34,135 bases of DNA, from positions 1 to 34,135 of IMG/VR virus record IMGVR_UViG_3300027538_000007. One strand, given 5' to 3'. Below the pieces are notes generated by a model. That model was given only the letters and a program-made list of their open reading frames with translations, was not told the origin of the DNA and ran no database searches. This DNA comes from a virus. The position numbers and the translations under genes are program-made. This document shows, piece by piece, positions 1-32,655 of the stretch; the stretch's first letter is position 1, and each line of letters opens with the position of its first letter.

Positions 1-3000
1 AGTGCAACGGGTTGTCGTTGTCATATATCTTGCCGTCAGACATCGTGGCAAGAGCGGTGTAGTTAAGCGAATCTGCGGTGGGGACCGATAGTAGCTTGTC
101 CAGGTCCTGACCCATTTCGTAAACAATGTCGCTGGCAATACGCTCAACGTCCTCGGGGGTGCGGTCTTTTTGTTTGATGCGGTCACCGAACTGATCGGCA
201 AACTGCTTCATTGAGTTACTACCGGTGTGCAACGCTGCGATGTCTTTGGCAGACATCTTGCGGCTACGCTTGGTCTCGCGGCCCAGGTTCTTGGCGCTAG
301 AGGGAACCATCAACGCATCAATAGCGGTAATCGACGCACCCAGCATGGTCTCCGTCTCGGCATTGGTGAAGCCAACCAAGCGCAAAACAATGCTCTTGAT
401 GGCCCGCAGCATGTCAGTCAGACGCCAGGGCTTCGCACGCAGCTGCTCTTGCAGCTTCTTGTTGGAGAACACTTCAGCCGCAAACTCGGACAGGCTGCCC
501 TTGGCGCTGGCGCTGGTAATACTTGGATCGTCCTTGATCGCGTTGTGGATGTCGGTCAGCTCACGCACGGCAGCGCGTTGCGTCTCGGTCAACTTGTCGG
601 GGTTGTTCTTATATAGTTTGATCACACGCTCGGTAACAGCGTGGGTGCCCTCGTGGAGCAGAACTTCCTGGGACAAACCGCCGTTGCGGCTAAGTTCAAT
701 CTTTGTGCTAATAGCACTACCCAGCACTTCACCACCCGCGTTGTCATATAGGCGGTTCTGAACAACCACGTCAGTTCCGCTCAACATCGTAGCCAGGCGT
801 TTGGCCACAGCGCGGTTCAGCTTGTCGGCGTTGGGGTCCTCTGCAATATCAAACAGCACCGACGTCAGCTTGTTGTTCTCCAACGCCTGAACTTGATCCG
901 GTGTTAGGTCTGGACTTGCAACTTCCACCCCACGGGCAAAACGCTCAGATTCGCGTTCCACTGCCTCTGCTTCACGACGTGCTTGCTGGCGTGGGGTCTC
1001 AAACACCGCTGCGCGTTCTGTGGCAACAGTCTCCGATTGTTTAGCCGTTAGCTTGGCCACGCTATCTTTCAGCTTCTTCTCGTCTTCTTCCAGCTTGCGG
1101 TACGTTGGAGAAATCTTGCCCTTCTCCAGGTGCTTCTTGTTTGTCTTCAAGAAGGTCATACGCCGCTGCACTTCAGCCAGGTCGCTGCGGGCCTTGATGA
1201 GCTTGTTGGTCGTTACCGCTGCGGGCTCCACCATCGGCGTGGGTTTGAGCGGCTGCACGATCTGGTTCGTTCTTACATCACGGTAAGCACCAATACGCTT
1301 AACAGGTTGTAGCTTGGGCGCCTTCTCACCCTTGCGCTTGCGACGCCGCGCTGAAGCCGCATCATAGGCAGCGGCCTGGGCCTCATCAAACTCACGGGCT
1401 TCTTTCTCAGCCTTGCGGGTCAGCAACTCGGTCTTAACAACCGGAGCGTTGGCATAGACGGTATCCAGCTTTTGCTTCTGCTCGTCCAGCTTTGCCTGCA
1501 ACTCAGCCTTGCGGTCTGCGTCTGTCTCGTTGTCAATCTGTTCGTCCAGGCTACCCATGGCACTGCGGATTTCCGCAATCTGTTGCTTGAGGTTGGAGGT
1601 GTCTTTCTCCAGACGCACACCTGGCAGGTTCAAGCCCTCACGCCCAGCTTGTAGCGCACCACGCCACACGGGTTCCGGCGTGGGTTTAGTCTGATCGGTA
1701 ACTGCGGCCTCTTCCTCTGCCTTGGCAGCACGTGCTTTTTCAGCGGCTTCAGCTGCGGCAACTTGTTGCTTTTCTGCTTGCAGGGCTTTGTTCGCCTCGG
1801 CCAAATCTTCTTGCGCAGCGAACAGATCCTTGTTGGCTACCTCCATGCGCTTTTGCAGCGGCTTGACCAGCGTATCGTCGGCGGCAATTGTTGCGTTGAT
1901 AGCGGCTTCTAACTCTCTGCCAACAGCCAGTGCTTCCTCTGCTTGCTTCAGCTTTGCCCGCAGGGCACGCTCTTGTTTGAGCGCGTTGCCTACGTTGACC
2001 AAGGTCCGCACGTCTGCTGGTTCAGACAGCAAGAAAGTTCTGATGGCCTCGATGTCTTGCACTGCTATAGCAGCGCTATCACGGGCTGCCTGGAGAGCCA
2101 GCAACGTCTGGCTAATAGCGCCCAGGTCTTCTGCAAACTCTTGTTTGAAGTTATGCAGCACAGTGCCAGACCTCTGCGCTGTTTTGAGCTTTGACGTGTA
2201 GTGCGCCTTGGCTTTGCGCAACTTGTTGGTTGCGGTAGGTAGCTCCCGGCTTAGACGCTGCAACGCGTCGATGTTGTTCTGACGACGCTTCTCGATGTCC
2301 TCCCGCAGCTTCTGGACTTGACCAGACTCAAGCAACTTCTGGAAGTTACGCACGGTGTCACGCACCGTCTGGGGCATGTCGCCAAACAACTCCCGCTGGG
2401 GCTGCGCTTCAAACTTAGCCTCACCACGAGCAACACGTTCGGTCTCTGCTGCGCTCAAGGCGGGTGCTGCACTACGGCCTGCGGCCTCTTGCGCACGCAT
2501 CATCTCGTCCAGATCACGCACGGCAAACGGGTTAGGCAGGTTGCCTTCCAGGACTTGCTGTGCCTGCTCACGAGCCAATTTAGCAAACTCAGGATCGGTC
2601 GAACCAGGCAGCGCTTCACGCAGGCGCTCAAGCAAGTCAATGGACGCCTGGTCCATCTTGGCAGCGTTGCCACTTGTTTTGTCCTGCTCAAACAGACGAG
2701 CCATCTCGGCCAGCGATCCCACTTTGGCGGGGGCTTTTTCTCCCACTGCCGGTGCTGCACGGGTGCGGCGATCAGCCGTAGACAACGCCTGCTCGATCAG
2801 GTTTAGGGCATCTTGCTTGTCCTCGGCAGCACGACGAGGCGCACCACGCAAAGCTAGTTCGGCAGGGGCAGCAATACGCGGTCCAGTCTCCCGAGGCGTT
2901 TCCATCGTCTTGCCTTCAATGCGCTTGCCTTCTTCGTCTTCAAAGAAGAACTGCTGGCCACGGCGAGGCTCGTTCTTTTGCTCGGTCTTGGCGGCTTCGG

Positions 3001-5368
3001 CCAAGTTAAAGCGCTGCGCGGCATCAAGGACGTTGTCAAATGTAGACTTGCGCACGATGCGCTGAAGCTGACGCACGCTAGTAACCGGGTTGTTGAACTG
3101 CCCCCAGTTGTTATCCAGCGTATTCAGTGCCTCCATGGCTCGGGCACGCGCTTCGCCACGCTCCCAGTCCGCCATCTCAGGCAGACCAAACATAGCACGG
3201 CGAGCATTGATCTCATTAGCATGCGCCTCGGCAAACTGCTCCTTGATGCCACTGACACGCTCGCGTTGGGTTTCCGGCAGACCAATACGACCAGCAAGGG
3301 CTTTGACTCGGGCCAACTCAACCATGAGCATGCGCTGGGTGTCGGCATAGGACACCGCCTTTTTCTCTTGCGCGGCGGTATCTGCTGGTTTTGTGCCTAG
3401 CAAGCCTTGTAACTCAGCCGTAGCCTGGCCAGCATCGGCTGTGAGATCGGTACCGAGGTCCTCTTTACTGCGCAGCTCACGGATCAGATTCTGAGCAGTA
3501 GCCTTATCCTTGGTAGCCAGGGCTATCTTGAGCTGCGCACGCAAGTCGTCGATGCTGGCTTTCTTACCGCCAAGCCCACGGTACAACGTACCGGGCATGA
3601 TCTTCCCTGTCTCACGCGGCAGCGTACCCACAAGCGCCTCCACCACGGCTTCTTCATGGTCGCGTTTTGCCAGGCGTTCTTCAGCGGCGATGCGGTTGGC
3701 TTCGGAGAAGCTGTCCTCTGGGACACGTCCAAGGCGGCGGATACCCTCAACCTCGGGCTGGATGCGTTGTGCACGGCGTGCGTCTTGGTCGGCCTGTTCC
3801 GCCTCCTGGGCAAGTCTGTCTGCCTCCGCACGTTGAGCTTCTAGGGCGGCTCGCTCTTCCCCTTCCACCTGACCCAGGCGTTGCTGCGCCGCTAACGTAG
3901 CCTGGCTTCCGGCAATTTTTGCCTCTTTAGCGGCGGCCTTGTCCTGAAGAGTAAGCGTGGACTCCAACGAATTCAGCACACGTTGGCTCTGGGCAGGGGT
4001 CAAGCCGGGGATCGGTAAGCCTGCGGCAACCAACGCCCGTGCCATCTCCGGCTTTGCCAGGATGTAGTCGACGTAGCTACCAACGTCGGCGTAGGGTTCC
4101 CGGTCCTGGGCTAGCTTGACTTGCGCTGCGGCAAACTTTTGGGCATCCGAGTAGGGGGTAATGGGCTGAGTACCCACAGGCTCAGGCATCATGCCTCGTG
4201 GCATTTTGGTCTTGCCCGGTACTTCCTGGGCTTGTTCCAACGCATACTCTTCGGGCGTCATCGCCTTGATGCGCTCATACTCAGCCGTGTCTTTATCGCG
4301 CTGGGCTTGTAGCAAAGCGTAGCGTTGCAGATATTCTTGCTGCTCTTTCTCCAGCTTGCGAGCACGTGCTTCCTCGGCCTTGGCTGCTTTTGCCGTAATC
4401 TTGGGCTCAGGCTGCGCGGGTGTAGGTGGTTGGCGCAGGGTAGGCTCGGGTATGGCCTCGGTCCCGGGAACGACTTCGGGAGGTTGCTCGCCCGGTTGTG
4501 CCGCTTGTTCTGCCGGTTGTTGCCCGGCAACGGGGCCAGGAGGTGTGACAGGCTTAGCCCGACGACCGATGGCCAAGTCCAGCAGACCCTGAACCAACGC
4601 GCCAGTAGCGCCGCCGTAGGCAGCAGACTCACCAACTTGCTCAATGATCGCCTGGTCGGGTTTGTAGATGCCCTTGGCAATGAGGTTCTGTGCAATTTGA
4701 GCTGCGGCTTCTTGCGCAGCTTCTTCGCCACCTGCCAACAACGCACGACGAACTGCCGCCGCAGCTCCAGCCTGCACAGGTGCAGATAGACGGTTCAGAA
4801 TCCGGGCCGGAGCAAACATCTCTGTTGCGCCCACCACACTACCCAAGGCCGTGGCTAAGCTGCGTTGGTCGGCTGTTGCGCCTTCTTGCTCGGCCCTTAC
4901 TCGTGCTTCACCTGCGCCAGCGCCTACACCCAGTCCGGCCATACCCAAGCGTCCGGCTGCTCCAAGCGGGCCCAACGCCAAGAACGGTCCTACTGAGCCG
5001 AAGGATTCACCTAGCTTACGACCAATGGTTTCTTCGTATCCGGGAGCGGCAGTAAACGGCTCGCGTGCCGCAGCCGCTAGGCTGCGAATTTTGTTGCGTG
5101 CGATTAACTCTTGCTGGTCGGGCAGTAGCGCAGAAATACCCGTGCCTGCTGACTCCACCATTCCGATGGCGCCGGGGATTACACCCTTGGCAAATTCTTT
5201 GAACTGCCCTCCGATGGTCGGAGCTTCTTTGGCTTTTGGCGGTTCCGCTGGGGTTTCAAACCCAAGCATCTCGCTGATCATTCGCTGCGCTTCTTCCGGG
5301 GAAGTGCCAGCGGGTACATCAAAGCGGGCTATCCGCCCGTCCGGCATTTCAAAGCGTGCGATTGTCAT
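1..5368 (-). CDS. Giant internal virion/ejection-type protein with HEXXH metallopeptidase motif (3' end beyond window)
   Basis: The frame is open from an ATG at 5368 to the left edge: 1789 codons with no stop, so the C-terminus is missing. The N-terminus (MTIARFEMPDGRIARFDVPAGT) resembles a short opening motif common in phage internal proteins. Hydrophobic Gly/Ala stretches follow (about residues 50-150), then a Pro/Gln-rich linker (about 240-290), then more than 1100 residues rich in Ala, Glu, Lys, Arg and Gln that look like helical coiled coil. Near the visible end is LLHEGTHAV, with HEGTH at residues 1572-1576, a zincin HEXXH. About 50 residues later comes SEFAAEVFSN, whose glutamates (1628, 1632) could supply the third zinc ligand. 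This spacing matches the metallopeptidase domains of phage 'polyvalent' proteins as I know them. The start lies 5 bases past the stop of the muramidase gene with only a weak ribosome site, which suggests translational coupling. I infer a protein packaged in the head and injected into the host; the protease substrate is unknown. Confidence 0.8.
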   Translation of the reverse strand, partial: MTIARFEMPDGRIARFDVPAGTSPEEAQRMISEMLGFETPAEPPKAKEAPTIGGQFKEFAKGVIPGAIGMVESAGTGISALLPDQQELIARNKIRSLAAAAREPFTAAPGYEETIGRKLGESFGSVGPFLALGPLGAAGRLGMAGLGVGAGAGEARVRAEQEGATADQRSLATALGSVVGATEMFAPARILNRLSAPVQAGAAAAVRRALLAGGEEAAQEAAAQIAQNLIAKGIYKPDQAIIEQVGESAAYGGATGALVQGLLDLAIGRRAKPVTPPGPVAGQQPAEQAAQPGEQPPEVVPGTEAIPEPTLRQPPTPAQPEPKITAKAAKAEEARARKLEKEQQEYLQRYALLQAQRDKDTAEYERIKAMTPEEYALEQAQEVPGKTKMPRGMMPEPVGTQPITPYSDAQKFAAAQVKLAQDREPYADVGSYVDYILAKPEMARALVAAGLPIPGLTPAQSQRVLNSLESTLTLQDKAAAKEAKIAGSQATLAAQQRLGQVEGEERAALEAQRAEADRLAQEAEQADQDARRAQRIQPEVEGIRRLGRVPEDSFSEANRIAAEERLAKRDHEEAVVEALVGTLPRETGKIMPGTLYRGLGGKKASIDDLRAQLKIALATKDKATAQNLIRELRSKEDLGTDLTADAGQATAELQGLLGTKPADTAAQEKKAVSYADTQRMLMVELARVKALAGRIGLPETQRERVSGIKEQFAEAHANEINARRAMFGLPEMADWERGEARARAMEALNTLDNNWGQFNNPVTSVRQLQRIVRKSTFDNVLDAAQRFNLAEAAKTEQKNEPRRGQQFFFEDEEGKRIEGKTMETPRETGPRIAAPAELALRGAPRRAAEDKQDALNLIEQALSTADRRTRAAPAVGEKAPAKVGSLAEMARLFEQDKTSGNAAKMDQASIDLLERLREALPGSTDPEFAKLAREQAQQVLEGNLPNPFAVRDLDEMMRAQEAAGRSAAPALSAAETERVARGEAKFEAQPQRELFGDMPQTVRDTVRNFQKLLESGQVQKLREDIEKRRQNNIDALQRLSRELPTATNKLRKAKAHYTSKLKTAQRSGTVLHNFKQEFAEDLGAISQTLLALQAARDSAAIAVQDIEAIRTFLLSEPADVRTLVNVGNALKQERALRAKLKQAEEALAVGRELEAAINATIAADDTLVKPLQKRMEVANKDLFAAQEDLAEANKALQAEKQQVAAAEAAEKARAAKAEEEAAVTDQTKPTPEPVWRGALQAGREGLNLPGVRLEKDTSNLKQQIAEIRSAMGSLDEQIDNETDADRKAELQAKLDEQKQKLDTVYANAPVVKTELLTRKAEKEAREFDEAQAAAYDAASARRRKRKGEKAPKLQPVKRIGAYRDVRTNQIVQPLKPTPMVEPAAVTTNKLIKARSDLAEVQRRMTFLKTNKKHLEKGKISPTYRKLEEDEKKLKDSVAKLTAKQSETVATERAAVFETPRQQARREAEAVERESERFARGVEVASPDLTPDQVQALENNKLTSVLFDIAEDPNADKLNRAVAKRLATMLSGTDVVVQNRLYDNAGGEVLGSAISTKIELSRNGGLSQEVLLHEGTHAVTERVIKLYKNNPDKLTETQRAAVRELTDIHNAIKDDPSITSASAKGSLSEFAAEVFSNKKLQEQLRAKPWRLTDMLRAIKSIVLRLVGFTNAETETMLGASITAIDALMVPSSAKNLGRETKRSRKMSAKDIAALHTGSNSMKQFADQFGDRIKQKDRTPEDVERIASDIVYEMGQDLDKLLSVPTADSLNYTALATMSDGKIYDNDNPLH

Positions 5369-5373
5369 AGATT

Positions 5374-7482
5374 TTACTCAGGAGGCTTGCTCTCAAACCC
5401 AAGGAATCGAGGCTGTCCTCCCGTAGCAGGACCGCTTCCAAGCATTGTAGGCGAAATCCCATATTGCATAAACTTTTCCATGCGCAGGCGGTTGTACAAC
5501 TTGGTTCGCTCGGCGGGGTTGAGCATCAAGTCAAAGTTGTCTTTTGACAACGCCGTAAACGCATCATGCGCGGCTTTCTCTGCGGCGGCAACAAGGTCGC
5601 GCTCTTTTGACCCACGCTCAATTGCTTCGGCCCCAGCGGTGTAGTACTTGCCCAAAGCGTCACGGTAGGCCGAGTCGGCTTCTTCTTTGATGCGGGCTTG
5701 ACGCATGGCTAGGCCTTTGAGGCCGCCTTCACCAATGTTGGTAAGGGCGTTGGGGCTTTGCCCGCTCAAAATGCCCAGACCAATTGCAATAAAGTCGTCT
5801 CCGGTAAAACCCTTAGTCTTGCCGCCAGCTTCTTTGACGGCTTCTTTGCCCAGAGTTTTTAGTTCAGCCGTGTCGCCTTTTGACAAGAAGTTTTCACGGC
5901 CTGCGGCGCCCAGACTTGCATCTGTAGCACCCAAATCAATGTCACCAAACGGAGCACCGATACCCATATTGCCTGCGGCAGTAGCCGCAGCAGCCACTAA
6001 CCCAGCGCCTGTCTTGGCAGCTTGGCCGGTCTGTGCTGCGGATGTAAGTCGCGCTGCTTCTTCTGCCTCACGCAGCATCGAGGCCTTCTGAATCTTCTCA
6101 GCTGCGCTTTCACCAGCGGCAACATCTTGCGCCAGACCAGCGGCTTTGGTAGCTGTGGTGCCTGTCTCAGCACCCTGCGCGGCTTGTGCAGCCTTGCGAG
6201 CATTGGCGGCTGCGGCCATTTGTTCCAGGCGTGTAGCTTCCGGTCCGGGCGGTACCATGCGAGCAGGCTGAACCAGACTGGTAATACCTTCGCCGGCTTG
6301 CGTAACCGGGATAGTGGTTCCAGGCAGTTTGGCTTGGGGGCCGGTCAGTAGGAGCTGTGCTTCAGGCGTAATCTTGCGGGCCAGTTCTGACTCTGCACGC
6401 AATGCTGCAATACCCTCGGGGCTTAGACCGGCGGCGGGAACAAAGCGGTTGTAAGTCTTCTCACCCAGCGTTGCAAGCAGACCAGGCCCTGCTTTGGGTA
6501 CCGTAGTAGCGGGGGCCAACGGCGTTGGTGCCATCATCGTGTTGAAAACATTACGCCCAACATCACGCGAAAGACCAAGCGCCTCAGCGCCACGTTGGAA
6601 GCTGTCCGCAGACATGAACCCGCCCTCGGGTTGTTTGGCAGGAGCAGTTACGCTCTGCCCAGGGATGGCGCTGGCTTTGTCTACAGAAACCGCAGCAGCT
6701 TGTGCCGGAGGGATCATCGACATAAACGTCTTTTCCAGCTTGGCGCCGTAGTTGGGGTCCGTTGCGTACGCCCCGCGTTTGCCCTCTTGCAACCCGGCAG
6801 AAAACGCTTTGACGTCGGAGCCCGCCCCAATTGCCTTGGGAAAGTTGCGTTCAATTAAACTGGCGTAGTCATTGGCAAATGCTTCTGGCGAGTCGTAAGA
6901 CTTGTAAGAAGACTTGCTCTTTTCCATCTTGTCGTACGCGGTTGGGCCTTTGCCGGTCACATCTTTGATGTTGCCAAAGTTGTATTTACCGACTGTCTTC
7001 CGGCCCCAGTCAGTCTCATGCCCCCACTGAGCAATCAAAACACCGGGATCAACGCCCAGACGCTGGCCAACCTGCTCAGCCACTGCACGGTACTGGTTTG
7101 CAAATCTTTGGACAGGATCTTTAACAGCCACACCATCTGCGTAACCAGGCACCTCACCGCCGTCATCAAACGCCACGATGCCGCCTGCGGCGCCGGTAGC
7201 AATACCTTGCAAGTTGTTAGCCGGGAGTTGAGCAATACCTACGTCCTCGGGCAACGGCTCGGCAGCCATAGCTGCCAAATTCTGGTCAACTACTTTTGCC
7301 TGGGGTTGCTGTTGCTTAGCCTGTTCTTCCGCACGCACCTGTTTGCGCATCTGGCTTTCTTGGAACGCCAGCGGAAAGATAAATGGGTCGTTTTTGTGCA
7401 TTGCAGCATACTGCTGCAACTCCGAGTCCTTCATAAAGCGGAGCGACGTCAGGATGCTTCTAGTATCTGGGGTCATTGCCAT
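5374..7482 (-). CDS. Virion-associated peptidoglycan hydrolase / ejection protein with GH73 (FlgJ-like) domain
   Basis: 702 aa. Residues about 122-258 read as a glucosaminidase/FlgJ-type muramidase: RLGVDPGVLIAQWGHETDWG carries the expected catalytic Glu at 156. It is followed by KYNFGNIK (167-173), the SYDSPEAFANDYASLI segment, and YATDPNY (239-245), a typical late GH73 motif. The remaining C-terminal 440 residues are Ala/Thr/Gly-rich and low in complexity, with no domain I recognise. Residues 105-111 hold an FDDGGEV motif that recurs in variant form in other proteins of this window. The start is supported by AAGGAACG seven bases upstream. The gene sits between two other large internal proteins and far from the lysis cassette. 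This supports a virion enzyme that opens the cell wall during DNA entry rather than an endolysin. Confidence 0.85.
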   Translation of the reverse strand: MAMTPDTRSILTSLRFMKDSELQQYAAMHKNDPFIFPLAFQESQMRKQVRAEEQAKQQQPQAKVVDQNLAAMAAEPLPEDVGIAQLPANNLQGIATGAAGGIVAFDDGGEVPGYADGVAVKDPVQRFANQYRAVAEQVGQRLGVDPGVLIAQWGHETDWGRKTVGKYNFGNIKDVTGKGPTAYDKMEKSKSSYKSYDSPEAFANDYASLIERNFPKAIGAGSDVKAFSAGLQEGKRGAYATDPNYGAKLEKTFMSMIPPAQAAAVSVDKASAIPGQSVTAPAKQPEGGFMSADSFQRGAEALGLSRDVGRNVFNTMMAPTPLAPATTVPKAGPGLLATLGEKTYNRFVPAAGLSPEGIAALRAESELARKITPEAQLLLTGPQAKLPGTTIPVTQAGEGITSLVQPARMVPPGPEATRLEQMAAAANARKAAQAAQGAETGTTATKAAGLAQDVAAGESAAEKIQKASMLREAEEAARLTSAAQTGQAAKTGAGLVAAAATAAGNMGIGAPFGDIDLGATDASLGAAGRENFLSKGDTAELKTLGKEAVKEAGGKTKGFTGDDFIAIGLGILSGQSPNALTNIGEGGLKGLAMRQARIKEEADSAYRDALGKYYTAGAEAIERGSKERDLVAAAEKAAHDAFTALSKDNFDLMLNPAERTKLYNRLRMEKFMQYGISPTMLGSGPATGGQPRFLGFESKPPE

Positions 7483-7491
7483 GGTCGTTCC

Positions 7492-8619
7492 TTACATTTT
7501 CGACAGGGCCAGGGCTTGCAAGCCGCTGGGGGCGTCGTCTTTTTTCTTCTCAAAGTCTTTGGGCAGACCGCCTTTCTTACCCATCAGCTTGCTCAAGCCG
7601 TAGGCGCCCATACCCAAACCTGCCGCCTGGGACAAGTAGCTCGGCGGGGCCTGATACGACTGGGTCGTGCTTGACTGCATGGGCAGACCGCGAAGCTGGG
7701 CATTCATAAACGCCAACTGTTGTTGCGGATACTGCTGGGTCATTGCGTAGTTCTGAATGGCCTGGTTCAGCACGTTCTGGTCATATGCTTGTCTCTGAGC
7801 GCCGTACTGGCTCTGCAAACCGAGGTTGCCTGCGCCTTGGCCATACAGCTGCTGGCCGCCTGCAATACCTGCCTGGGCGCCTTGAAGACCTAGATTGGCG
7901 CCAAACTGCTGAGCCTGACGTGCCTGATCAAACGCAGACTGTAAGCCTTGAGCCTGGATAGCCCCTTGTTGCGTAGCCAGATTGCGCTGACGTTCAGCCT
8001 CCATAATGGCTTGACGGCTACCGCCAAAAGCCCCGGCTTGAGTAGCCTGCCCGCGCTGCTGTGTACCCGCAATATCCGACATGCGCCGGGCTTCGCGCTG
8101 CTGTACATCCACCACGTTTTGCATGTACGGAGACATGTAGGCGGCAGTGGCGTAGGGGTTGGTTGCCTGGCGTGCGTATTGTTGACCCGCACCCAGAGCT
8201 TGTGCCGTACCAGCAGCCGTGCCGCCCATGCCTGCTTGCATAGCGGTGCCGGTTTCCAAACCGCTTGCCGTCTGGTACGCCTGGTTTTGCAGGGGGTCAA
8301 ATTGAGCATAGGCAGAACGCGCCGCAGCCATTTCACCGGGGCCAAGACCCGCTTGACCGCCGTCTACTTGCGCACCAAACGCCTGATATGGCTTGACGCT
8401 GGTAATCTGCGTAGTTCCGTCGGGACCGGGAGCAGTGTTGAACAACTGCTGCTGGGTGGCGCCCAGCATGGTCTCTACGTACGGACGGGCGTACTCGGGG
8501 ATGTTTGACGTCTGCGTTGTGCTCGTAGTCGGGCCGCCACCACCACCGCTGCCTCCGCCCCAAAGGGTGAAATTTTTAATAATAGCCAGCGGGTTCCAAA
8601 ACGATTGGAGCAAGTTCAT
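7492..8619 (-). CDS. Gln/Ala-rich internal virion (ejection) protein, putative
   Basis: 375 aa, dominated by Ala, Gln and Gly, with long stretches of predicted helix (about residues 95-300) and a Gly run near the N-terminus (residues 22-29). The C-terminus is positively charged and hydrophilic (GKKGGLPKDFEKKKDD). No catalytic motif is visible. The ATG overlaps the stop of the GNAT-like gene by four bases (ATGA at 8616-8619). Its composition and its place between the 468-aa protein and the muramidase match the internal-core proteins of short-tailed phages. A minor structural protein elsewhere in the virion is possible. The role is inferred from context and composition. Confidence 0.65.
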   Translation of the reverse strand: MNLLQSFWNPLAIIKNFTLWGGGSGGGGGPTTSTTQTSNIPEYARPYVETMLGATQQQLFNTAPGPDGTTQITSVKPYQAFGAQVDGGQAGLGPGEMAAARSAYAQFDPLQNQAYQTASGLETGTAMQAGMGGTAAGTAQALGAGQQYARQATNPYATAAYMSPYMQNVVDVQQREARRMSDIAGTQQRGQATQAGAFGGSRQAIMEAERQRNLATQQGAIQAQGLQSAFDQARQAQQFGANLGLQGAQAGIAGGQQLYGQGAGNLGLQSQYGAQRQAYDQNVLNQAIQNYAMTQQYPQQQLAFMNAQLRGLPMQSSTTQSYQAPPSYLSQAAGLGMGAYGLSKLMGKKGGLPKDFEKKKDDAPSGLQALALSKM

Positions 8620-9047
8620 AGCAATGCCTCGACCAGAGTGTTGCGGGGTTCAAAGTTGTAGCGTTTCCACAACCGGACGATGGCGTCTCGTCCTGACCCT
8701 TGGATTTTCGTAGCGCCTCGGCTTTTCAGGATTACCTTGAGCTGCTCAAAGGTCTCCTTACTGGAAATCAGTTTGCCCCCAATACAGGTGACAAACGCCA
8801 CACGGTGCAGGGGGTAGTTGATGAACGACACGGTGGCCGCCCCTTGGATTTTATTCTCTTCGTCCGCTGCCACCAAGAGAAGCCACTGCCCGCCCGTCAC
8901 AAATTGCTGGACGTGGTGGATGTTGTAGCAAGCGGCCCAGTCGGGGAAGTCCACGCCCTTGGTCAGCGCGTCGTTCAGGAAAGGCTCCACCAGCGGCCAG
9001 ACTTGCTGGACGTGGTTTGTGTCGACGTGCTGAACCGTCAGTTTCAT
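8616..9047 (-). CDS. GNAT-like acetyltransferase-fold protein
   Basis: 143 aa, a usual length for a single GNAT domain. The central part (about residues 55-85) alternates strands in the pattern of the GNAT core: QWLLLVAADEENKIQGAATV, then VAFVTCIGGKLI. The C-terminal part has a GRDAIVRLWKRYNFEP segment like the last helix and strand of GNATs. The classic acetyl-CoA loop (Q/RxxGxG/A) is not obvious; the closest stretch is IGGKLISSKETF, so activity is uncertain. The gene is nested by ATGA overlaps between two internal-protein genes and so is translated with them. It could modify a virion or host protein, or be a structural reuse of the fold. I am fairly sure of the fold and unsure of the function. 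Confidence 0.6.
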   Translation of the reverse strand: MKLTVQHVDTNHVQQVWPLVEPFLNDALTKGVDFPDWAACYNIHHVQQFVTGGQWLLLVAADEENKIQGAATVSFINYPLHRVAFVTCIGGKLISSKETFEQLKVILKSRGATKIQGSGRDAIVRLWKRYNFEPRNTLVEALL

Positions 9048-10486: not shown

Positions 10487-11161
10487 TCAGATCTTTGACA
10501 CAAACGTCGCCGTGAAGATCACGGACGGTATTGCCGGGCGTGTAGGGGTAGCCGCCACGGGCTCTGACTGGATAAACGCGCTGGTATTTGTGGTATGCCA
10601 CTGTAAGCTGACGTTGTCCCCTGCGGCCATATCAACAAGCAAGTTCACCGTACCTACCGCATAGAACGGCGTTGCTGGGTTCTTACGGGCGGCCATACCA
10701 ATCCGGGTGTTGGAGCGCGGTATGTTGGTGCCGTTATAAAGAAACCAAACGTCGATGGATTCCGTGGAGTTGGCCAGGTTGGCGCACTGAATACTGTACT
10801 GAAAGTTATACCGCCCCGCTTTGGCAGTAGTTACTTGATACCCGCTTACCAACGAAACGTAGTTAGACGCGTCGGTGTCAGTAAACGTAATATCGTAAGC
10901 CGCTGTGGTGCTGGCTGCCGTTTGTGAAGCCGAAGATGAAAACGCCCCGTTGGGGAAATAAATGGCCGACCCATCATTGATGGGGGACAATGCGGTTGTA
11001 CGCAGCTGGCTGTTAAAGCTGTCCAGTTGGTTGAAGTACAGGCGCAGGATGTTGGTGTACTGATCCATAAACCGCTGGTCGTACTCGACCGGGGCGGCTG
11101 CCAGACGCGGAGCAACGAACCTGTTGAGGTCTTGCTCGGTATAAACAAACAAGTTGCTCAT
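10487..11161 (-). CDS. Tail protein with N-terminal adaptor segment and C-terminal beta-sandwich
   Basis: 224 aa. The N-terminal 55 residues (YTEQDLNRFVAPRLAAAPVE then FMDQYTNILRLYFNQLDSF) form a helical block that resembles one I recall as common next to gp10-like genes of aquatic phages. The remainder is beta-rich (YDITFTDTDASNYVSLVSGY; AGRYNFQYSIQCANL; VWFLYNGTNIPRS) and ends in VIFTATFVSKI. It reads as a C1q/TNF-like or jelly-roll sandwich of the kind used in tail tips. The start overlaps the propeller gene by ATGA (11158-11161), so the two are probably made in matched amounts. The likely role is a small tail or needle component attached to the gp10-like protein. The function is inferred. 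Confidence 0.6.
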   Translation of the reverse strand: MSNLFVYTEQDLNRFVAPRLAAAPVEYDQRFMDQYTNILRLYFNQLDSFNSQLRTTALSPINDGSAIYFPNGAFSSSASQTAASTTAAYDITFTDTDASNYVSLVSGYQVTTAKAGRYNFQYSIQCANLANSTESIDVWFLYNGTNIPRSNTRIGMAARKNPATPFYAVGTVNLLVDMAAGDNVSLQWHTTNTSAFIQSEPVAATPTRPAIPSVIFTATFVSKI

Positions 11162-13332
11162 CGACGACCATCCGGGCGCACATCCATACGCGGGGTTCCC
11201 AGCTGCCAGGCCACACCAAGTTCAGTGGACTCCACGCGAAACGCCATCTGACGACCACGCAGACGGACATAGACCTGCTCGGTGAATTGCTGCACGTTAT
11301 AGGACTGCTGGCCTGCGTAATTCTGCGTGCTCTTGACTGCCGGGTTGTCCGACGTGCCATAGTTGGTGCCGGGGAACTGCCGTGGGCGCACAGTAAAGTT
11401 GGCCTGGGGTTTGTTGACGTTCGAGCCGTCAAACGTAATGTCAGGGATCATGCGCCACACAAAACCGAAGTTGTGGCCGTCGCCAATATCAAAGTCCGAG
11501 GACTGCACGTAAGCAGTGATGGGGGACGCCGGGTTTGTTGTGCCGTCATCATTACCCGTCTCGTGGTACACCAGCTGGCCGTTTGACCCGGCGTAAGGGG
11601 TGGCCATCGGCTGCGAGCGCAGCGGGCTATCCAGCCAAGAACTGCGAGCCAGCGTGCCGTAATACCAAGTGCGTTCCAAGTAGTTGTACACAACGTACTT
11701 GTCTACCGTGGAAGAAGAAGCAGAGCAATAAAACCACCAGATTTCGTTATAGCCCTCATTGGTTCCGGCAAACGCCTGGAAGCCCTGCGTGGTATTGATG
11801 TCGTCATAGATGTACTGACGCAAGGTACAAGGGAGGGTTTCCACTCGACCGGAATACATGTAGAACTTGTCGACACCCATCCAGTACGTGATGTTGTTGA
11901 CTGTAGTAACGCAGTTGGGGCCCAGGATGGAGATGTTGTCTCCCATGATTTGAACACCCCAGACGTACGGCGCTCCAAGATACTGCATGGAATAAATGGC
12001 TGCATCGGTCAACACCAATACTTCCTGACGAGTCTGAATGGCCGTAATAATCTGCGACCCCCGGCTCAGTCGATAGCTGCCCGCTTGGTTGGTAATGGAC
12101 GGCGTCCACACATTGGGGCTTTCTTGGTCGGACCAGCGCACCAACATCGGGTCTTGCGTGGTCGATCCGTAGTCGTTAACGCCAAATGCCAAAATAAAGC
12201 GAGAGGCGTCAGACACCATGACGTAGTTGCAGAGGGATGGCGCGTTGGCCACCCGCATGTAGCTTGCCCCCGTCGTGGAGCCGGTCATGGTGACAGGTGT
12301 TAGCAAGTCAACAGTTGAGGAAAGCGTGTAGACCAACGGGGTAGCGGTAGAAACAAGGTAGTACGGAGTGTTCGCAACAACCCCAGTCGGGAGCGTTCCG
12401 TTGGTTGTAAACGAAACACCAGTACCCTCCGCCAAGTAGCTAGCAAGGGTGACTTCAGAAGTCGCTATATTAAAAGTTACCGTCTGCTGAGTCAGCTGCA
12501 CAGCCCGGTTAAATTGCGTTGGGACAACCGTGTTGAACGCCCAGTAGTAAATAGGACCGCCACGGGGGTTGAACACCAAGTCCTGGCCAAAGTTGGACTG
12601 GCTCCATGTGCGCAATTGAACACTGATGCCAGACGCAGCTTCCTCGCCCCAGCCAGTATTTGTTCCGGGAGAAGCCACAACGCCGCCCCAAGTACCTGCG
12701 CCCCAACCGTTGACGGCGCCAAAGACATCTGCGCCCGAGGCAATTGGGTATTGGGCGACTGTAAGCGACCCACCGTTTCCAACGTCGCTGGCGTTAGCCG
12801 TTGCGCTGGTCGTGATGCTGTAGGTGTTTGGACCAATGTACGTGACTTGGAACTCGCTGTTGAGGACGGCAGCCGTGATGTTGCCACCCAGAGAGGCCGC
12901 TCCACTGAACGTTACAAAGTCGCCCGTGTTGCCACCCCAACCCGAGTTGGTAACCGTGACAATGTTTGAGCCTGACGTAGCGGCAAAGGTCACCTGCCCT
13001 GCCAGCGTAGTTTTACGCAGCGGCGTCACATCGTTAATGTTGCCACCGACCCCGTTCTGAATATAGAACTTCAGGTTGGTACCAAGGCTCAACAGGTTGA
13101 ACCCGTTCAAGGACACCCAGTTCCACATGGAGCGGCAGATGCCCCAGAACATGCCAGTAGGCGGCACAGCGGGCTCGGTGACCACGCCAGCATCCTTTAC
13201 CCAGCCGCCGATCTTCTCAGGATAGCCGGAACGGAACCGCACCTTATCGGACTCAAACCAACCGCCCTCGTTGGCCAACGTGGTTGATTCCCGGTTGACA
13301 CCCGGTCGGAACTGAAGCTTCTGTAAGGGCAT
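11158..13332 (-). CDS. P22 gp10-like neck/tail hub protein (beta-propeller), with inserted beta-domains
   Basis: 724 aa, longer than the ~470 aa of P22 gp10. The N-terminus (LQFRPGVNRESTTLANEGGW, then DKVRFRSGYPEKIGGW) is the entry typical of this family in environmental phages. The C-terminal half has propeller-like strands (VLTDAAIYSMQYLGAPYVWG; INNITYWMG-like VNNITYWMGVDKFYMYSGRV; YLERTWYYGTLARSSW). Two segments look inserted: about residues 112-195, a TGDFVTFSGAASLGGNITAA module, and about 283-361, a TGVSFTTNGTLPTGVV module. Family knowledge: gp10 closes the portal channel below gp4 and carries the tail fibres or needle. The start has a clear TAGGAG site. It follows the lysozyme gene by eight bases. 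Confidence 0.72.
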   Translation of the reverse strand: MPLQKLQFRPGVNRESTTLANEGGWFESDKVRFRSGYPEKIGGWVKDAGVVTEPAVPPTGMFWGICRSMWNWVSLNGFNLLSLGTNLKFYIQNGVGGNINDVTPLRKTTLAGQVTFAATSGSNIVTVTNSGWGGNTGDFVTFSGAASLGGNITAAVLNSEFQVTYIGPNTYSITTSATANASDVGNGGSLTVAQYPIASGADVFGAVNGWGAGTWGGVVASPGTNTGWGEEAASGISVQLRTWSQSNFGQDLVFNPRGGPIYYWAFNTVVPTQFNRAVQLTQQTVTFNIATSEVTLASYLAEGTGVSFTTNGTLPTGVVANTPYYLVSTATPLVYTLSSTVDLLTPVTMTGSTTGASYMRVANAPSLCNYVMVSDASRFILAFGVNDYGSTTQDPMLVRWSDQESPNVWTPSITNQAGSYRLSRGSQIITAIQTRQEVLVLTDAAIYSMQYLGAPYVWGVQIMGDNISILGPNCVTTVNNITYWMGVDKFYMYSGRVETLPCTLRQYIYDDINTTQGFQAFAGTNEGYNEIWWFYCSASSSTVDKYVVYNYLERTWYYGTLARSSWLDSPLRSQPMATPYAGSNGQLVYHETGNDDGTTNPASPITAYVQSSDFDIGDGHNFGFVWRMIPDITFDGSNVNKPQANFTVRPRQFPGTNYGTSDNPAVKSTQNYAGQQSYNVQQFTEQVYVRLRGRQMAFRVESTELGVAWQLGTPRMDVRPDGRR

Positions 13333-17878: not shown

Positions 17879-20671
17879 TCAGAAGTTGGGAAACGCCGCT
17901 GCTGGCGGGGTGAAGTTGGCCGTGTAGCGAGCCACACCTTTGGTGACTCGCACGTCGTCAAGGTATCCGTTAAGATACTGCGTTGTGCCCGTTGATGTGG
18001 CATATACACGACCAAGCGCTTGTGCGGTTTCGTAAAAATTTACCGACGACGTACCGCTGGCCTCAAGGGTTCCGTCGAGGAACAAACGCGCCGTAGTGCC
18101 AGACCGAGTTAGCGCAAAGTGATACCATTGGCCCGTCGTGACGTTATTAGTTGAAGTCAAAGTAAGTGTGGTTGCGTTATCGGCTTGCAAGATCGCTATC
18201 AGTTTTGTTGTGCTTGCACGAATTAAAACACCGTGATCGCCAGGGCTTGCCAACTGTACAAGGGTGGAATACAGACTATGGAACGTTGATGCAGGAGCAC
18301 CAGCAAAATACACCCAACCTTCAACCGTAAAATCACCCGTGCCAAACGTGATTGCCGGCTGGCTGGCCATAATTAGGGCGTCTGAAAGGCCATTAAAGTA
18401 CATCGACCCCGTGCCATATTTGACAATGGTGGTATTTACCTGGGCGCTGCCAATTGTCTCTAGGTCGTTGACCGTTGTGTTGTCAAAGATGCCTGCGTTG
18501 GTTCCATTGACTAGCAGTTGTGTGCCGGAGACCGCTGTTACCGGGGCTGTTGGTGGCACGAAAGGACCCGTGTAAACTGCTGTGCCGTTTACGACACGCA
18601 AATTTGAAAGATAGCCCAACATGTTCAACGTTGCGACGTTACCGCCGTCTGCACCAATAATTGGGCGCGCCGCGCCATTCGCATAATTGGTTGCGTCTAC
18701 GTAAGAACCTAATAAAGCGCCGTTCAAATACAATCTTGTGGTGCCGCTGGATCGAACCAACGCTATATGATTCCACGCATAATACTGTATGGTTCCACCA
18801 ACAATTCTGTTGGCCCCGATTGTATAGTAGAATACCTGATTGGTTGAGCCGATATACAGCGTTGGATAAGGACCCGTAATAGAGTTTGGCCTACCGTCAT
18901 AAATCATTCGGTCGGCGGCTACGGTTGGGTATATCCACACCTCGATTGTGAAGTTGTTTAATCCAAAAGCAAGGTTGGATGATCCAGTAAGCGTAAGGTA
19001 ATCGCCGCTGCCGTCAAAGTACGCAGACCCAGCGTAAGTTGACCCTGTGTACGATGTTGGCCCCGTCACCGTGTCGGTGAACGGGTTGGCGCGTTTGGGT
19101 GTTGCGTTGCCGTTCACTGTGATGGTGAACGCGTTGGTGCTGTTGTCAATGAACGAGGTTGATTGACAGGTAAGTAGGGATGTACCTGAGATTGCCGTCA
19201 ACGGCGATGTGGGCGGTGTGAAAGCGCTTGTATATACCGCCGTGCCTTTGACAATACGGAAGTTGGAGATAGACCCCAACAGAGGGTTGCTTGCGCTTTC
19301 GCCTCCAATGGTTAGAGTGCCCGTAGAAAAATCGGTCGAGTTTGTTACTGACTGCGCTACCGCGCCGTTGATGTACAGCGTTAGTGTTGTTCCGTTTCTT
19401 ACCAACGCAAAGTGATTCCATTGCCCAGCAGTTGGCCACGCAGGGTTCAGTATTACGGATGTGCCCGAAAACACTTCAATTTTTGAAGTTGCTGCCGTAT
19501 TAAAAACACGCAACACAGAACCAGAAGTCCCGTAAGAAAAATGCGTGTAATACCCAGCACTGGGGTTGGCGGGTAGATAGAGCCAATACTCAATAGTAAA
19601 ACTTCCAGATCCGGGCCAGATAGTTGAATTGCTGGCAGGTGCAGTCAAATAATCCCCCGTACCATCAAAGTACCCGCTGTAACTTGCTGGATTGGTTTGA
19701 TAGAACGTAAACGGGGCGAACTTAGACACCTGAACGCCGCCGACTCTAGTAAGCGGCCAGCCTGCGCCGCTTATGTCGTTAAACCTGTTTTGGTTATTAA
19801 CCAGCAGCGTCGTGTCGGTCGTGGCAATTAACGGCGTTGTAGATGGAGTAAAGTTAGCGGTGTATACAGCACGCTTACCGATCACGCGCAGGTTGCTGAT
19901 GTATCCGTTAAATCCCTGCCACGTGGTGCCAGCATACAAGTAACCGCCAGAGGATATGTAGTTAGTGGTTGTCGATGAGGCAGTTGTGCTGGTAAGCCCG
20001 GTCAGTGTCTCTTGCACACCGTTAACAAACATTCTAATTACGCCGTTGCTTACACTGAGCGCAATGTGTGTCCATGTATTGAGGGGGATTATAGAACCTC
20101 CCTTGGAAATTTGGTCACTTCCTGCGTACCAAAACAAAACTAGGTTGCCGTTGCTATCAGGACCAAAAGACCAGTCAACCGCAGATCCCGCCAATTGCAT
20201 TTGACCAACTACATAGCCGAGGACCGCGCCGCCCCCACTATGACGAGAAAGCGGGTAAATCCATGCCTCCGCTGTAAACGTGACGGTTGCGTTAAACGCG
20301 CTGCCAATAATTGTGCTCGCGCTGTTTGTTGGCGTTGTCCACCCCGACTGCGTGGTTGCGTAGAAGTTACTCCAGTTACCCGGTCCGACGTACGGGTTGA
20401 ATGCTCCCTGAGTCGTGTTGCCGTTACGGGTGATCGTGAAGTTGTTGACGCTGCTGTCTACGAAGCTGTTGTTCTGCGCGCCGTTGGTGCCGTCCCCGTG
20501 CAAGAGCAACGTGGTGTTTTGAAAGTACGGGTCCGCGCCAGATCCCGGAGGCCACAGGCCCGCCTTTTGATAGTACTGCGCCTCTTCCAGGTTCCACACA
20601 CCGGAAGCGCCTGACTGCGATACCGTCGGCGCGGTGGCGGAGATTACGCCGCCTGTATAGCGGTTCGTCAT
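17879..20671 (-). CDS. Large fibre/adhesin with four LamG-like (concanavalin A-like) domains
   Basis: 930 aa. A short N-terminal segment (SGVWNLEEAQYYQKAGLWPP) with a conserved look, probably the attachment site, is followed by four beta-sandwich units at about 105-265, 330-475, 545-695 and 755-920. Each unit has the LamG signature: FxxExWxY near the start (FTAEAWIYP, FTIEYWLYLP, FTIEVWIYPT, FTVEGWVYFA), a WxHxAL strand (NTWTHIALSV, QWNHFALVRN, AWNHIALVRS, QWYHFALTRS), and a closing VxKGxAxYTxxFxPP (for example RIVKGTAVYTSAFTPP, RVTKGVARYTANFTPP). LamG-like domains bind sugars, which makes this a strong candidate for the receptor-binding or decoration protein. The ATG overlaps the stop of the preceding gene (TAATG, 20673-20669). 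There is no enzyme motif. Confidence 0.85.
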   Translation of the reverse strand: MTNRYTGGVISATAPTVSQSGASGVWNLEEAQYYQKAGLWPPGSGADPYFQNTTLLLHGDGTNGAQNNSFVDSSVNNFTITRNGNTTQGAFNPYVGPGNWSNFYATTQSGWTTPTNSASTIIGSAFNATVTFTAEAWIYPLSRHSGGGAVLGYVVGQMQLAGSAVDWSFGPDSNGNLVLFWYAGSDQISKGGSIIPLNTWTHIALSVSNGVIRMFVNGVQETLTGLTSTTASSTTTNYISSGGYLYAGTTWQGFNGYISNLRVIGKRAVYTANFTPSTTPLIATTDTTLLVNNQNRFNDISGAGWPLTRVGGVQVSKFAPFTFYQTNPASYSGYFDGTGDYLTAPASNSTIWPGSGSFTIEYWLYLPANPSAGYYTHFSYGTSGSVLRVFNTAATSKIEVFSGTSVILNPAWPTAGQWNHFALVRNGTTLTLYINGAVAQSVTNSTDFSTGTLTIGGESASNPLLGSISNFRIVKGTAVYTSAFTPPTSPLTAISGTSLLTCQSTSFIDNSTNAFTITVNGNATPKRANPFTDTVTGPTSYTGSTYAGSAYFDGSGDYLTLTGSSNLAFGLNNFTIEVWIYPTVAADRMIYDGRPNSITGPYPTLYIGSTNQVFYYTIGANRIVGGTIQYYAWNHIALVRSSGTTRLYLNGALLGSYVDATNYANGAARPIIGADGGNVATLNMLGYLSNLRVVNGTAVYTGPFVPPTAPVTAVSGTQLLVNGTNAGIFDNTTVNDLETIGSAQVNTTIVKYGTGSMYFNGLSDALIMASQPAITFGTGDFTVEGWVYFAGAPASTFHSLYSTLVQLASPGDHGVLIRASTTKLIAILQADNATTLTLTSTNNVTTGQWYHFALTRSGTTARLFLDGTLEASGTSSVNFYETAQALGRVYATSTGTTQYLNGYLDDVRVTKGVARYTANFTPPAAAFPNF

Positions 20672-29045: not shown

Positions 29046-29975
29046 TTACGCTCCGGCAGAGCCCCAGATTCCCAGGGGATCAGACCAGCCGAACGAATAA
29101 CGCTCGCGGGCCTTGTAGCGGACGTTGCCGGTGTCGAAATCACCGTCCATCGAGTTAGCCAGAGGCATACGCTCGAAGTGCTTCATGCCGTTGGGCACGT
29201 CGGTCAACAGGAACCAAGCGTTGCTATCGGTCAAGAAGTGGTTGACGGTGTAACCTTCCGGCACAGCACCCATCTGCTTCAGCGCGTTGATGTCGTTGTC
29301 GTTCGTGCCAACACGCAGCTCGGTGTCAAGCAGACGCTTGGCAACGAACATCAGTGCCGGGGGAACAACCATCTTACGCGGCTTGGCAGCGATCAGCAGA
29401 CCACGTTCATCGGTCCACGCAGCGATCTGAATCACAGCGTTTTCCAAGGAGGTCTCGTTCAGGTCAACGGCCACGGTCGGGCTGTTGTAGTTCACACCAC
29501 CGTTAACCAGGGGGTGACCAACACGAACGCTGCTAGAGTTAACACCGAACAGCGACACGCCGTCACCGCCGGGATAAGAACCGCTGAAACCGTTGTTGAT
29601 AACGGAGGCGGCTTTTACCTGCTTGGTGTAGGACATGGCGCGGGCCAGGGCCTTGGTGTAACGAGCAGACAGGCTGTCGTACAGGTTATCTTCGATCGCC
29701 TCTTCGGTGATCGAGAAGCCCAAGGCGATGGTCTCGTGGGTGTAGCGGGCGGTGAACGCTTCCTGCGCGTTGTCGTAAGCGATGGCAGAGCCTTCGTTCT
29801 TGACAGGAGCAGCCTGGAAGCCAGCCAGCTTGGTTTCTTCTTCAAAGCTACGCTCCGACTTCTCGGTTTCGTAGATTTCCTTGTGCTCTTCGCCGTAACG
29901 GGCGTACTCCATGCCGAACAGAGCGTTCAAGCCAGGGAGCAGTTCCTTGAGCAGTTGTGCGCGTGAAATTGCCAT
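29046..29975 (-). CDS. Major capsid protein (HK97-fold)
   Basis: 309 aa. The order of features is that of an HK97-like capsid protein: an N-arm (AISRAQLLKELLPGLNALFG), the YETEKSERSFEEETKLAGF stretch, a long alpha region with TARYTHETIALGFSITEEAI and SARYTKALARAMSYTKQVKA, a Gly-rich loop (SGSYPGGDGVSLFGVNS), a P-domain part (AAKPRKMVVPPALMFVAKRL) and a C-terminal end YSFGWSDPLGIWGSAGA. There is no clear N-terminal delta domain, and a separate scaffold gene lies upstream. AAGGAGTAAACC before the ATG is the strongest ribosome site in the area, as expected for an abundant product. The gene is followed at once by a terminator. Confidence 0.9.
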   Translation of the reverse strand: MAISRAQLLKELLPGLNALFGMEYARYGEEHKEIYETEKSERSFEEETKLAGFQAAPVKNEGSAIAYDNAQEAFTARYTHETIALGFSITEEAIEDNLYDSLSARYTKALARAMSYTKQVKAASVINNGFSGSYPGGDGVSLFGVNSSSVRVGHPLVNGGVNYNSPTVAVDLNETSLENAVIQIAAWTDERGLLIAAKPRKMVVPPALMFVAKRLLDTELRVGTNDNDINALKQMGAVPEGYTVNHFLTDSNAWFLLTDVPNGMKHFERMPLANSMDGDFDTGNVRYKARERYSFGWSDPLGIWGSAGA

Positions 29976-32468: not shown

Positions 32469-32655
32469 CTGCTTTTTCGACTTTCTCTGCAAGGTCAATG
32501 ATGTAACGCTCTGCCATCGCCAGACCCTGGATGACGCCACAGAGTTTTTGATACTGCTCAAAAGATTGACATGAACCACCCGCCAAGTCGTCCGCGTAGT
32601 TGTTCAGGTCGGTGCGTATTTGTTCGCGCAATACGCGTGCGAAGTCTTGGATCAT
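32461..32655 (-). CDS. Small helical protein between portal and co-chaperonin
   Basis: 64 aa, all helical by pattern: IQDFARVLREQIRTDLNNYA, DDLAGGSCQSFEQYQKLCGV and IQGLAMAERYIIDLAEKVEK. The ATG overlaps the portal stop (ATGA, 32652-32655). AAGGAGAAG lies 10-13 bases upstream, so reinitiation after the portal is likely. The product could be a small head part or packaging helper. The QSFEQYQKLxGxIQGLAMAER string is one I know from equivalent positions in other aquatic phages. No function is known to me. It overlaps the co-chaperonin ATG by eight bases. Confidence 0.6.
   Translation of the reverse strand: MIQDFARVLREQIRTDLNNYADDLAGGSCQSFEQYQKLCGVIQGLAMAERYIIDLAEKVEKADE

Follow-up and report, generated by a model that had tools for sequence, protein, structure and literature searches.

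A zincin-like peptidase domain in a probable giant polyvalent ejection protein of an uncultured short-tailed phage

The minus-strand frame at the left end of the window (the whole stretch of DNA analysed here, 34,135 bases, which is an entire IMG/VR virus record and lacks end repeats) very probably encodes an ejection protein of the phage polyvalent type that contains a zincin domain. The explanation that we consider best, and probable as a whole, is that this protein is ejected and that its zincin would cut between its own modules; the identity of the protein is much firmer than this mechanism. The protein class, its domain and the overall concept are already known (Iyer 2017, PMC5512222); the part that a specialist might not expect is a pattern of interchangeable N-terminal tags. 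One peptidase domain, with its site intact, apparently occurs in three quite different ejection proteins, namely the window giant, the N4 virion RNA polymerase (vRNAP) and phiKMV gp37, and it ties the uncultured lineage to the latter two. No report of activity of this zincin domain was found in the literature searched.

A giant frame among the late virion genes

The frame (positions 2–5368, minus strand) runs for 1,789 codons and leaves the contig at its left edge without a stop, so that it covers the front part, 1,789 residues from the N-terminus, of a giant modular protein of polyvalent type. The initial annotation had described a single open frame of at least 1,789 codons with HEXXH at residues 1572–1576 and SEFAAEVF about 50 residues further on, and these positions were confirmed. 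It had also proposed following the frame leftwards to its stop, which succeeded in part: two IMG/VR contigs (L002 and L003), 100% identical over the frame, carry the protein to residue 2166, where it is still open and the stop is not reached. Four relatives with 43–47% identity are complete, from stop to stop, at 3,270–3,388 residues; among about 45 relatives most complete frames span ~2,800–3,680 residues, and two more distant groups measure 2,280 and 2,533 residues. Judging from the complete lengths of the relatives, the whole window protein would have about 3,300 residues, and the window therefore covers only slightly more than half of it. A tblastn search of phage isolates with the window protein gave no match, isolates being reached only through a distant C-terminal region queried by tblastn from a full-length relative, and a scan of genome contigs revealed no prophage relatives.

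The three full-length relatives scanned have LPD38 (PF18857) at their C-terminal end (E about 1e-28; 102–104 bits in L007 and L012 and 99.6 bits in L006, against a cut-off of 27). The frame of the window protein itself stops short of the LPD38 region, so that an LPD38 end is predicted for it by homology. In the relatives, the zincin domain, a downstream module named here after its GTxWCT motif and the LPD38 region lie within one frame, the first half of which is covered by the window. LPD38-bearing polyvalent proteins (Iyer 2017), such as that of Synechococcus phage MinM2, are likewise giant multidomain late products that combine an HEXXH zincin with a C-terminal region of LPD38 type. The MinM2 protein differs in having a second HEXXH and a RelA/SpoT annotation, and the GTxWCT/repeat module, for which there is no Pfam model, sets the window family apart from MinM2-type proteins.

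Between its N-terminal tag and the peptidase, the window protein has an Ala/Gly-rich segment (residues 41–300, positions 4469–5248, minus strand; A 21%, G 14%), possibly a membrane or channel part, and no Kyte–Doolittle window in the protein exceeds 1.6. This is followed by a long region rich in Ala, Glu, Arg, Lys and Gln and of lower conservation (residues 301–1476, positions 941–4468, minus strand), which is probably helical. More than 1,100 residues of probable coiled coil had been suggested here; a crude heptad test over residues 301–1476 selects only three short stretches (506–536, 1171–1209 and 1251–1280), leaving a weak case for coiled coil that does not establish it.

The gene stands among late virion genes, after those for capsid, portal, stabilization and wall-cutting proteins, all on the minus strand. 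Just upstream lies a gene for a 702-residue protein with a Glucosaminidase domain (positions 5374–7482; PF01832, E 4.5e-18), likely a wall-cutting ejection protein, and farther upstream are Ala/Gln-rich proteins, a lysozyme, tail genes and a stabilization-type virion protein (11158–13332; phrog_3287, E 4.7e-56, and a tblastn match to the ‘stabilization protein’ of DSL-LC04). The major capsid protein (29046–29975) shares 71% identity with its counterpart in Planktothrix phage Pag-Yong1 and 62–63% with those of Pelagibacter phages HTVC023P and HTVC027P. The C-terminal part of the portal protein (32652–34133) was recognized by tblastn to annotated portal or head-to-tail connecting proteins of isolates from the same circle as the capsid matches; the P22_portal profile gave no match. 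Sequence relationships thus point to a short-tailed phage related to Pag-Yong1 and HTVC023P.

Two other minus-strand genes deserve mention. Within the ejection-protein train, positions 8616–9047 encode a 143-residue protein; the equivalent set of genes in CRP-901 and Alcaligenes phage QDWS535 includes an annotated GNAT acetyltransferase. Several stretches of a 930-residue protein (17879–20671) match repeated domains of baseplate and virion structural PHROGs, and this is probably a tail protein that binds the receptor and is built from repeated domains.

The giant gene had been placed at the end of the train of internal-protein genes, and isolates of the same lineage bear this out with a comparable gene order. 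The last large gene of their trains encodes 722–2,803 residues. In MinM2 the corresponding position is occupied by a protein of 2,803 residues in which HEXXH occurs twice, at 590 and 1748; its C-terminal 800 residues are homologous to the window family, with E 1e-33 by BLAST and E 4e-47 by hhalign. HEXXH is absent from the short versions in CRP-901, HTVC023P, DSL-LC04, QDWS535 and Caulobacter phage RW. Judged by this synteny, the giant looks like an enlarged occupant of the standard ejection-protein position, and its packaging in the head and subsequent ejection are suggested by the gene context together with the N-terminal tag. P1 DdrB/DarB and, in Bcep22-type podoviruses, the giants resembling DarB are very large proteins that virions carry, as is proposed here for the window protein; they differ in being annotated as antirestriction proteins. 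One of these DarB-like giants, JC1 gp69 with 4,515 residues, is listed in a virion protein analysis of its phage (PMC9144972) and offers a precedent for giant virion proteins in podoviruses.

The zincin-like domain and its relatives

The zincin-like metallopeptidase domain occupies residues 1487–1691 (positions 296–910, minus strand), as delimited from a 41-sequence alignment (A2; 32–65% identity to the window protein), an AlphaFold2 model, Foldseek and hhalign. Its HEGTH motif (residues 1572–1576, positions 641–655) supplies the predicted zinc ligands H1572 and H1576 and the predicted general base E1573, while SEFAAEVF (residues 1627–1634) contains two Glu residues, E1628 (485–487) and E1632 (473–475), 52–56 residues past HEXXH. 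In 41/41 aligned family members the two His and the Glu of HEXXH are kept without change, as are both Glu of SEFxAE, so that the motif and its downstream Glu, whose loss in close homologues had been named as a counter-indication, show no loss at all. Within the N-terminal half of the protein, conservation is highest in the peptidase region, the flanks of which diverge. Zinc binding and catalysis are inferred for the domain. The third zinc ligand is most likely E1628, which aligns with the Glu of the NEF helix in N4 vRNAP, rather than E1632, because the latter is replaced by Trp in N4.

The AlphaFold2 core model of residues 1487–1691 has a mean pLDDT of about 90 and comprises, in model numbering, a helix (40–52), three strands (57–61, 74–77 and 80–84), a helix bearing HEXXH (91–112) and a helix bearing the Glu (150–159). 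The topology given for polyvalent peptidases consists of an N-terminal helix, three strands and two C-terminal active-site helices (Iyer 2017, PMC5512222), and the predicted model appears to match this core, consistent with a zincin-type fold. In a Foldseek search of the PDB, the top 12 matches were all zincins of the lethal-factor/PPEP group (E 0.06–0.5; best E 0.059, none ≤0.001). The best solved-structure matches are ATLF/M34-type zincins (the lethal-factor peptidase domain and PPEP-3), with probabilities up to 0.90; at 11–16% identity and E 0.06–0.9 this is a likeness at the level of the fold only. Among viral models in BFVD the best E was 2.3e-10, and the top matches include polyvalent-domain, internal core, virion-encapsulated RNA polymerase and crAssphage zincin-fused proteins. 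The initial annotation had expected a profile search to return a zincin. Curated Pfam and NCBIfam models returned no peptidase family at any reported E-value, either for the window protein or for the full-length relatives, whereas profile–profile alignment with N4 vRNAP and phiKMV gp37 and fold comparison did. A PF10026 match (8e-4) in the downstream module of one relative was judged spurious. The broader proposal of the initial annotation, a zincin-type peptidase within a phage polyvalent protein, is upheld by the fold model, the structure matches, the N4 and phiKMV profile alignments and the LPD38 regions of the relatives.

The motif is short and has no Pfam match, as would be expected had HEXXH arisen by chance in a coiled-coil structural protein. 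Against this stand 5,000 shuffled proteins, in which HEXXH occurred in 0.36% and HEXXH with E-h-x-A-E in 0, the invariance of the motif in relatives at about 60% identity and the confident zincin-type model, which together make a chance motif exceedingly improbable.

Since the nearest solved folds belong to secreted zincins with specific proteins as their targets, the peptidase might instead be an effector that is ejected and cleaves host proteins (of defence, transcription or protease control), leaving its own chain intact. The invariant catalytic residues fit this reading, Iyer 2017 (PMC5512222) lists it as a possibility, and a giant relative bearing the same tag (L146, 7001–14105) has other candidate effector domains, namely ART-PolyVal at E 4.7e-16 and RelA/SpoT as a match below threshold. 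However, likeness of fold to effector proteases does not confer their specificity, and the target is hypothetical; we regard an effector role as unlikely, if worth keeping in view, and rank self-processing after ejection above it.

The domain profile aligned by hhalign with N4 vRNAP (gp50) at HELVH 2228 and the following NEF helix with 33% identity and E 1.1e-5 (range 1.1e-5 to 6.5e-5; 0.1–0.74 for shuffled N4), so that HEXXH and the Glu helix of its C1 part are matched to those of the window domain. The N4 structure preprint independently places a conserved HExxH in residues 2124–2375 (C1), and a term search of its text found no description of cleavage (PMC12633501). Both N4 vRNAP and the window family are giant proteins of short-tailed phages, and phrog_2206, which is labelled as virion RNA polymerase, matches 8/10 family members (best 8e-12). 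However, no T7-like RNA polymerase domain was found in three full-length relatives of the window protein, and the match in the window is limited to the HEXXH region; identification as a virion RNA polymerase was therefore rejected. Homology of N4 C2 and of the phiKMV C-terminus to the LPD38 region was also considered and rejected, no relation being found.

phiKMV gp37, a gp16-like ejection protein (PMC8954989) and internal virion protein, likewise has an HEXXH domain that aligned with the window domain (HEAVH 423, E 9e-6). It differs in its smaller size (1,337 residues), in other flanking domains and in lacking an LPD38-region match. The gp37 sequence matches a solved chain annotated as internal virion protein, PDB 9sfn chain G, over the matched stretch, and a solved relative of the HEXXH domain may thus already exist; this chain is not among the best fold matches listed for the predicted domain model.

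Interchangeable N-terminal tags

Relatives that align over the remainder of their length begin with ~35 residues of at least three unrelated kinds (types A, B and C). The window protein has type A (residues 1–36, positions 5261–5368, minus strand; ...PDGRIARF.VP.GTSPEEAQ...), which is swapped within the family and is common to N-termini of non-homologous proteins. Among isolates, tblastn located type A at the start codon of frames for a Microcystis phage lytic transglycosylase, a ‘DNA injection protein’ and a coil protein of more than 3,000 residues, and type C at residue 7 or 8 of P22-gp16-like injection or DNA-transfer proteins in phages Emek and phiSG1 and a Vibrio phage. Type B had no tblastn match among isolates. 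For the gene just upstream (5374–7482), a search with a second N-terminal motif gave a single weak match only.

Type A is encoded at 262 places in IMG/VR; the best 80 of these 262 all begin at a Met no more than 13 codons past the preceding in-frame stop, a figure to be read with the bias toward starts of one of the two search patterns, which itself begins with Met. With a Met-free pattern for type C, the preceding stop was at most 15 codons away in 73/80 matches, where uniform placement would predict 2.2. Families within L018–L056, L125–L204 and L205–L284 carry such N-termini. Outside the tag, the tagged proteins form 11 BLAST clusters for type A in its strict form and 10 for type C; a remote relationship may link some clusters, phrog_5880 being common to two of the type A groups. 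One tagged protein (L201) matches injection transglycosylases.

According to a P22 study (PMC8402733), gp7 and gp20 enter the head by virtue of their N-terminal parts, the scaffold is required, and for T4 IPIII ten N-terminal residues are enough. Head loading is the reading that suggests itself for the ~35-residue N-termini, which could be portable tags that either bring proteins into the procapsid via the scaffold or determine which protein is ejected when; we put this idea forward tentatively. Their role would be comparable to that of the T4 capsid targeting sequence, with the difference that the tags would be modular across short-tailed phages; no description of such tags was found in the literature searched, coverage of which was incomplete. 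If they do direct head loading, they would be relevant to the selection of unrelated proteins for packaging, would make ejection proteins recognizable from about 35 residues and would offer a handle for putting cargo into phage heads.

Proposed course at infection and module turnover

In the course that we favour, the short N-terminal tag would help to load the giant protein into the procapsid, and at infection the protein would pass the tail largely unfolded. The zincin domain would then refold in the host, binding zinc via H1572, H1576 and probably E1628, and would cleave its own chain at the junctions of modules, so that the downstream GTxWCT/repeat module and the LPD38 end come free. Self-processing has been proposed for this class of polyvalent peptidase (Iyer 2017, PMC5512222); as the main role of the peptidase in the window protein it is a plausible suggestion that falls somewhat short of an even chance, and no conserved cleavage sequence was identified in the family.

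The strongest evidence against this course is that N4 vRNAP, which bears a related domain, is reported to be packaged unprocessed and to need the region containing the domain for its encapsidation (Iyer 2017, PMC5512222). Cleavage of host or phage internal proteins at infection, as the initial annotation had suggested, thus does not follow from the presence of the domain alone, and the two observations leave room for processing after entry, for a target in the host or for a structural role. The same findings would suit a domain that is mainly structural, aiding encapsidation or packing against adjoining modules, with catalysis minor or absent. By contrast, the retention of H, E, H and the Glu in 41/41 sequences goes beyond what a scaffold needs, and HEXXH is absent from the available part of three giants with tag and LPD38 region (L151, L157 and L170), so that the domain is not required in every giant of such layout; we consider a chiefly structural role rather improbable. 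The packaging of intact N4 vRNAP also argues against a protease that is active already ahead of infection and trims its own chain or further internal proteins while still in the cell or the procapsid. P1 DdrB, for which this has been proposed, is reported to be processed before packaging (Iyer 2017, PMC5512222), and for the window protein such early action seems less probable still.

The GTxWCT module, one of the two parts that self-processing after ejection would free, begins in the window (residues 1700–1789, positions 2–271, minus strand; alignment A3). Its core, ~residues 1776–2098, extends beyond the window contig (L003, 15326–16294) and reads GTxWCTG...GDFYVYY...VAVRM, followed by a repeat-like stretch. 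The module was modelled with a pLDDT of 84, has no Pfam or PDB sequence relative and is, within IMG/VR, largely confined to the family of the window protein. A Foldseek search of the model, which covered the viral structure library, returned weak PcfJ-like entries; a PcfJ identity was rejected, PF14284 giving no match in six records. In most relatives the module separates the LPD38 region from the peptidase, whereas L047, L051, L054 and L056 lack it, their C-terminal region following almost directly after the peptidase. Modules have thus been gained and lost across the family, as expected for polyvalent proteins. An LPD38-type C-terminal region is also present in a 2,684-residue protein of Achromobacter phage CF418P1 (OQ817832; L112, 2959–11013; hhalign E 3.5e-42), where the label ‘putative portal’ looks wrong.
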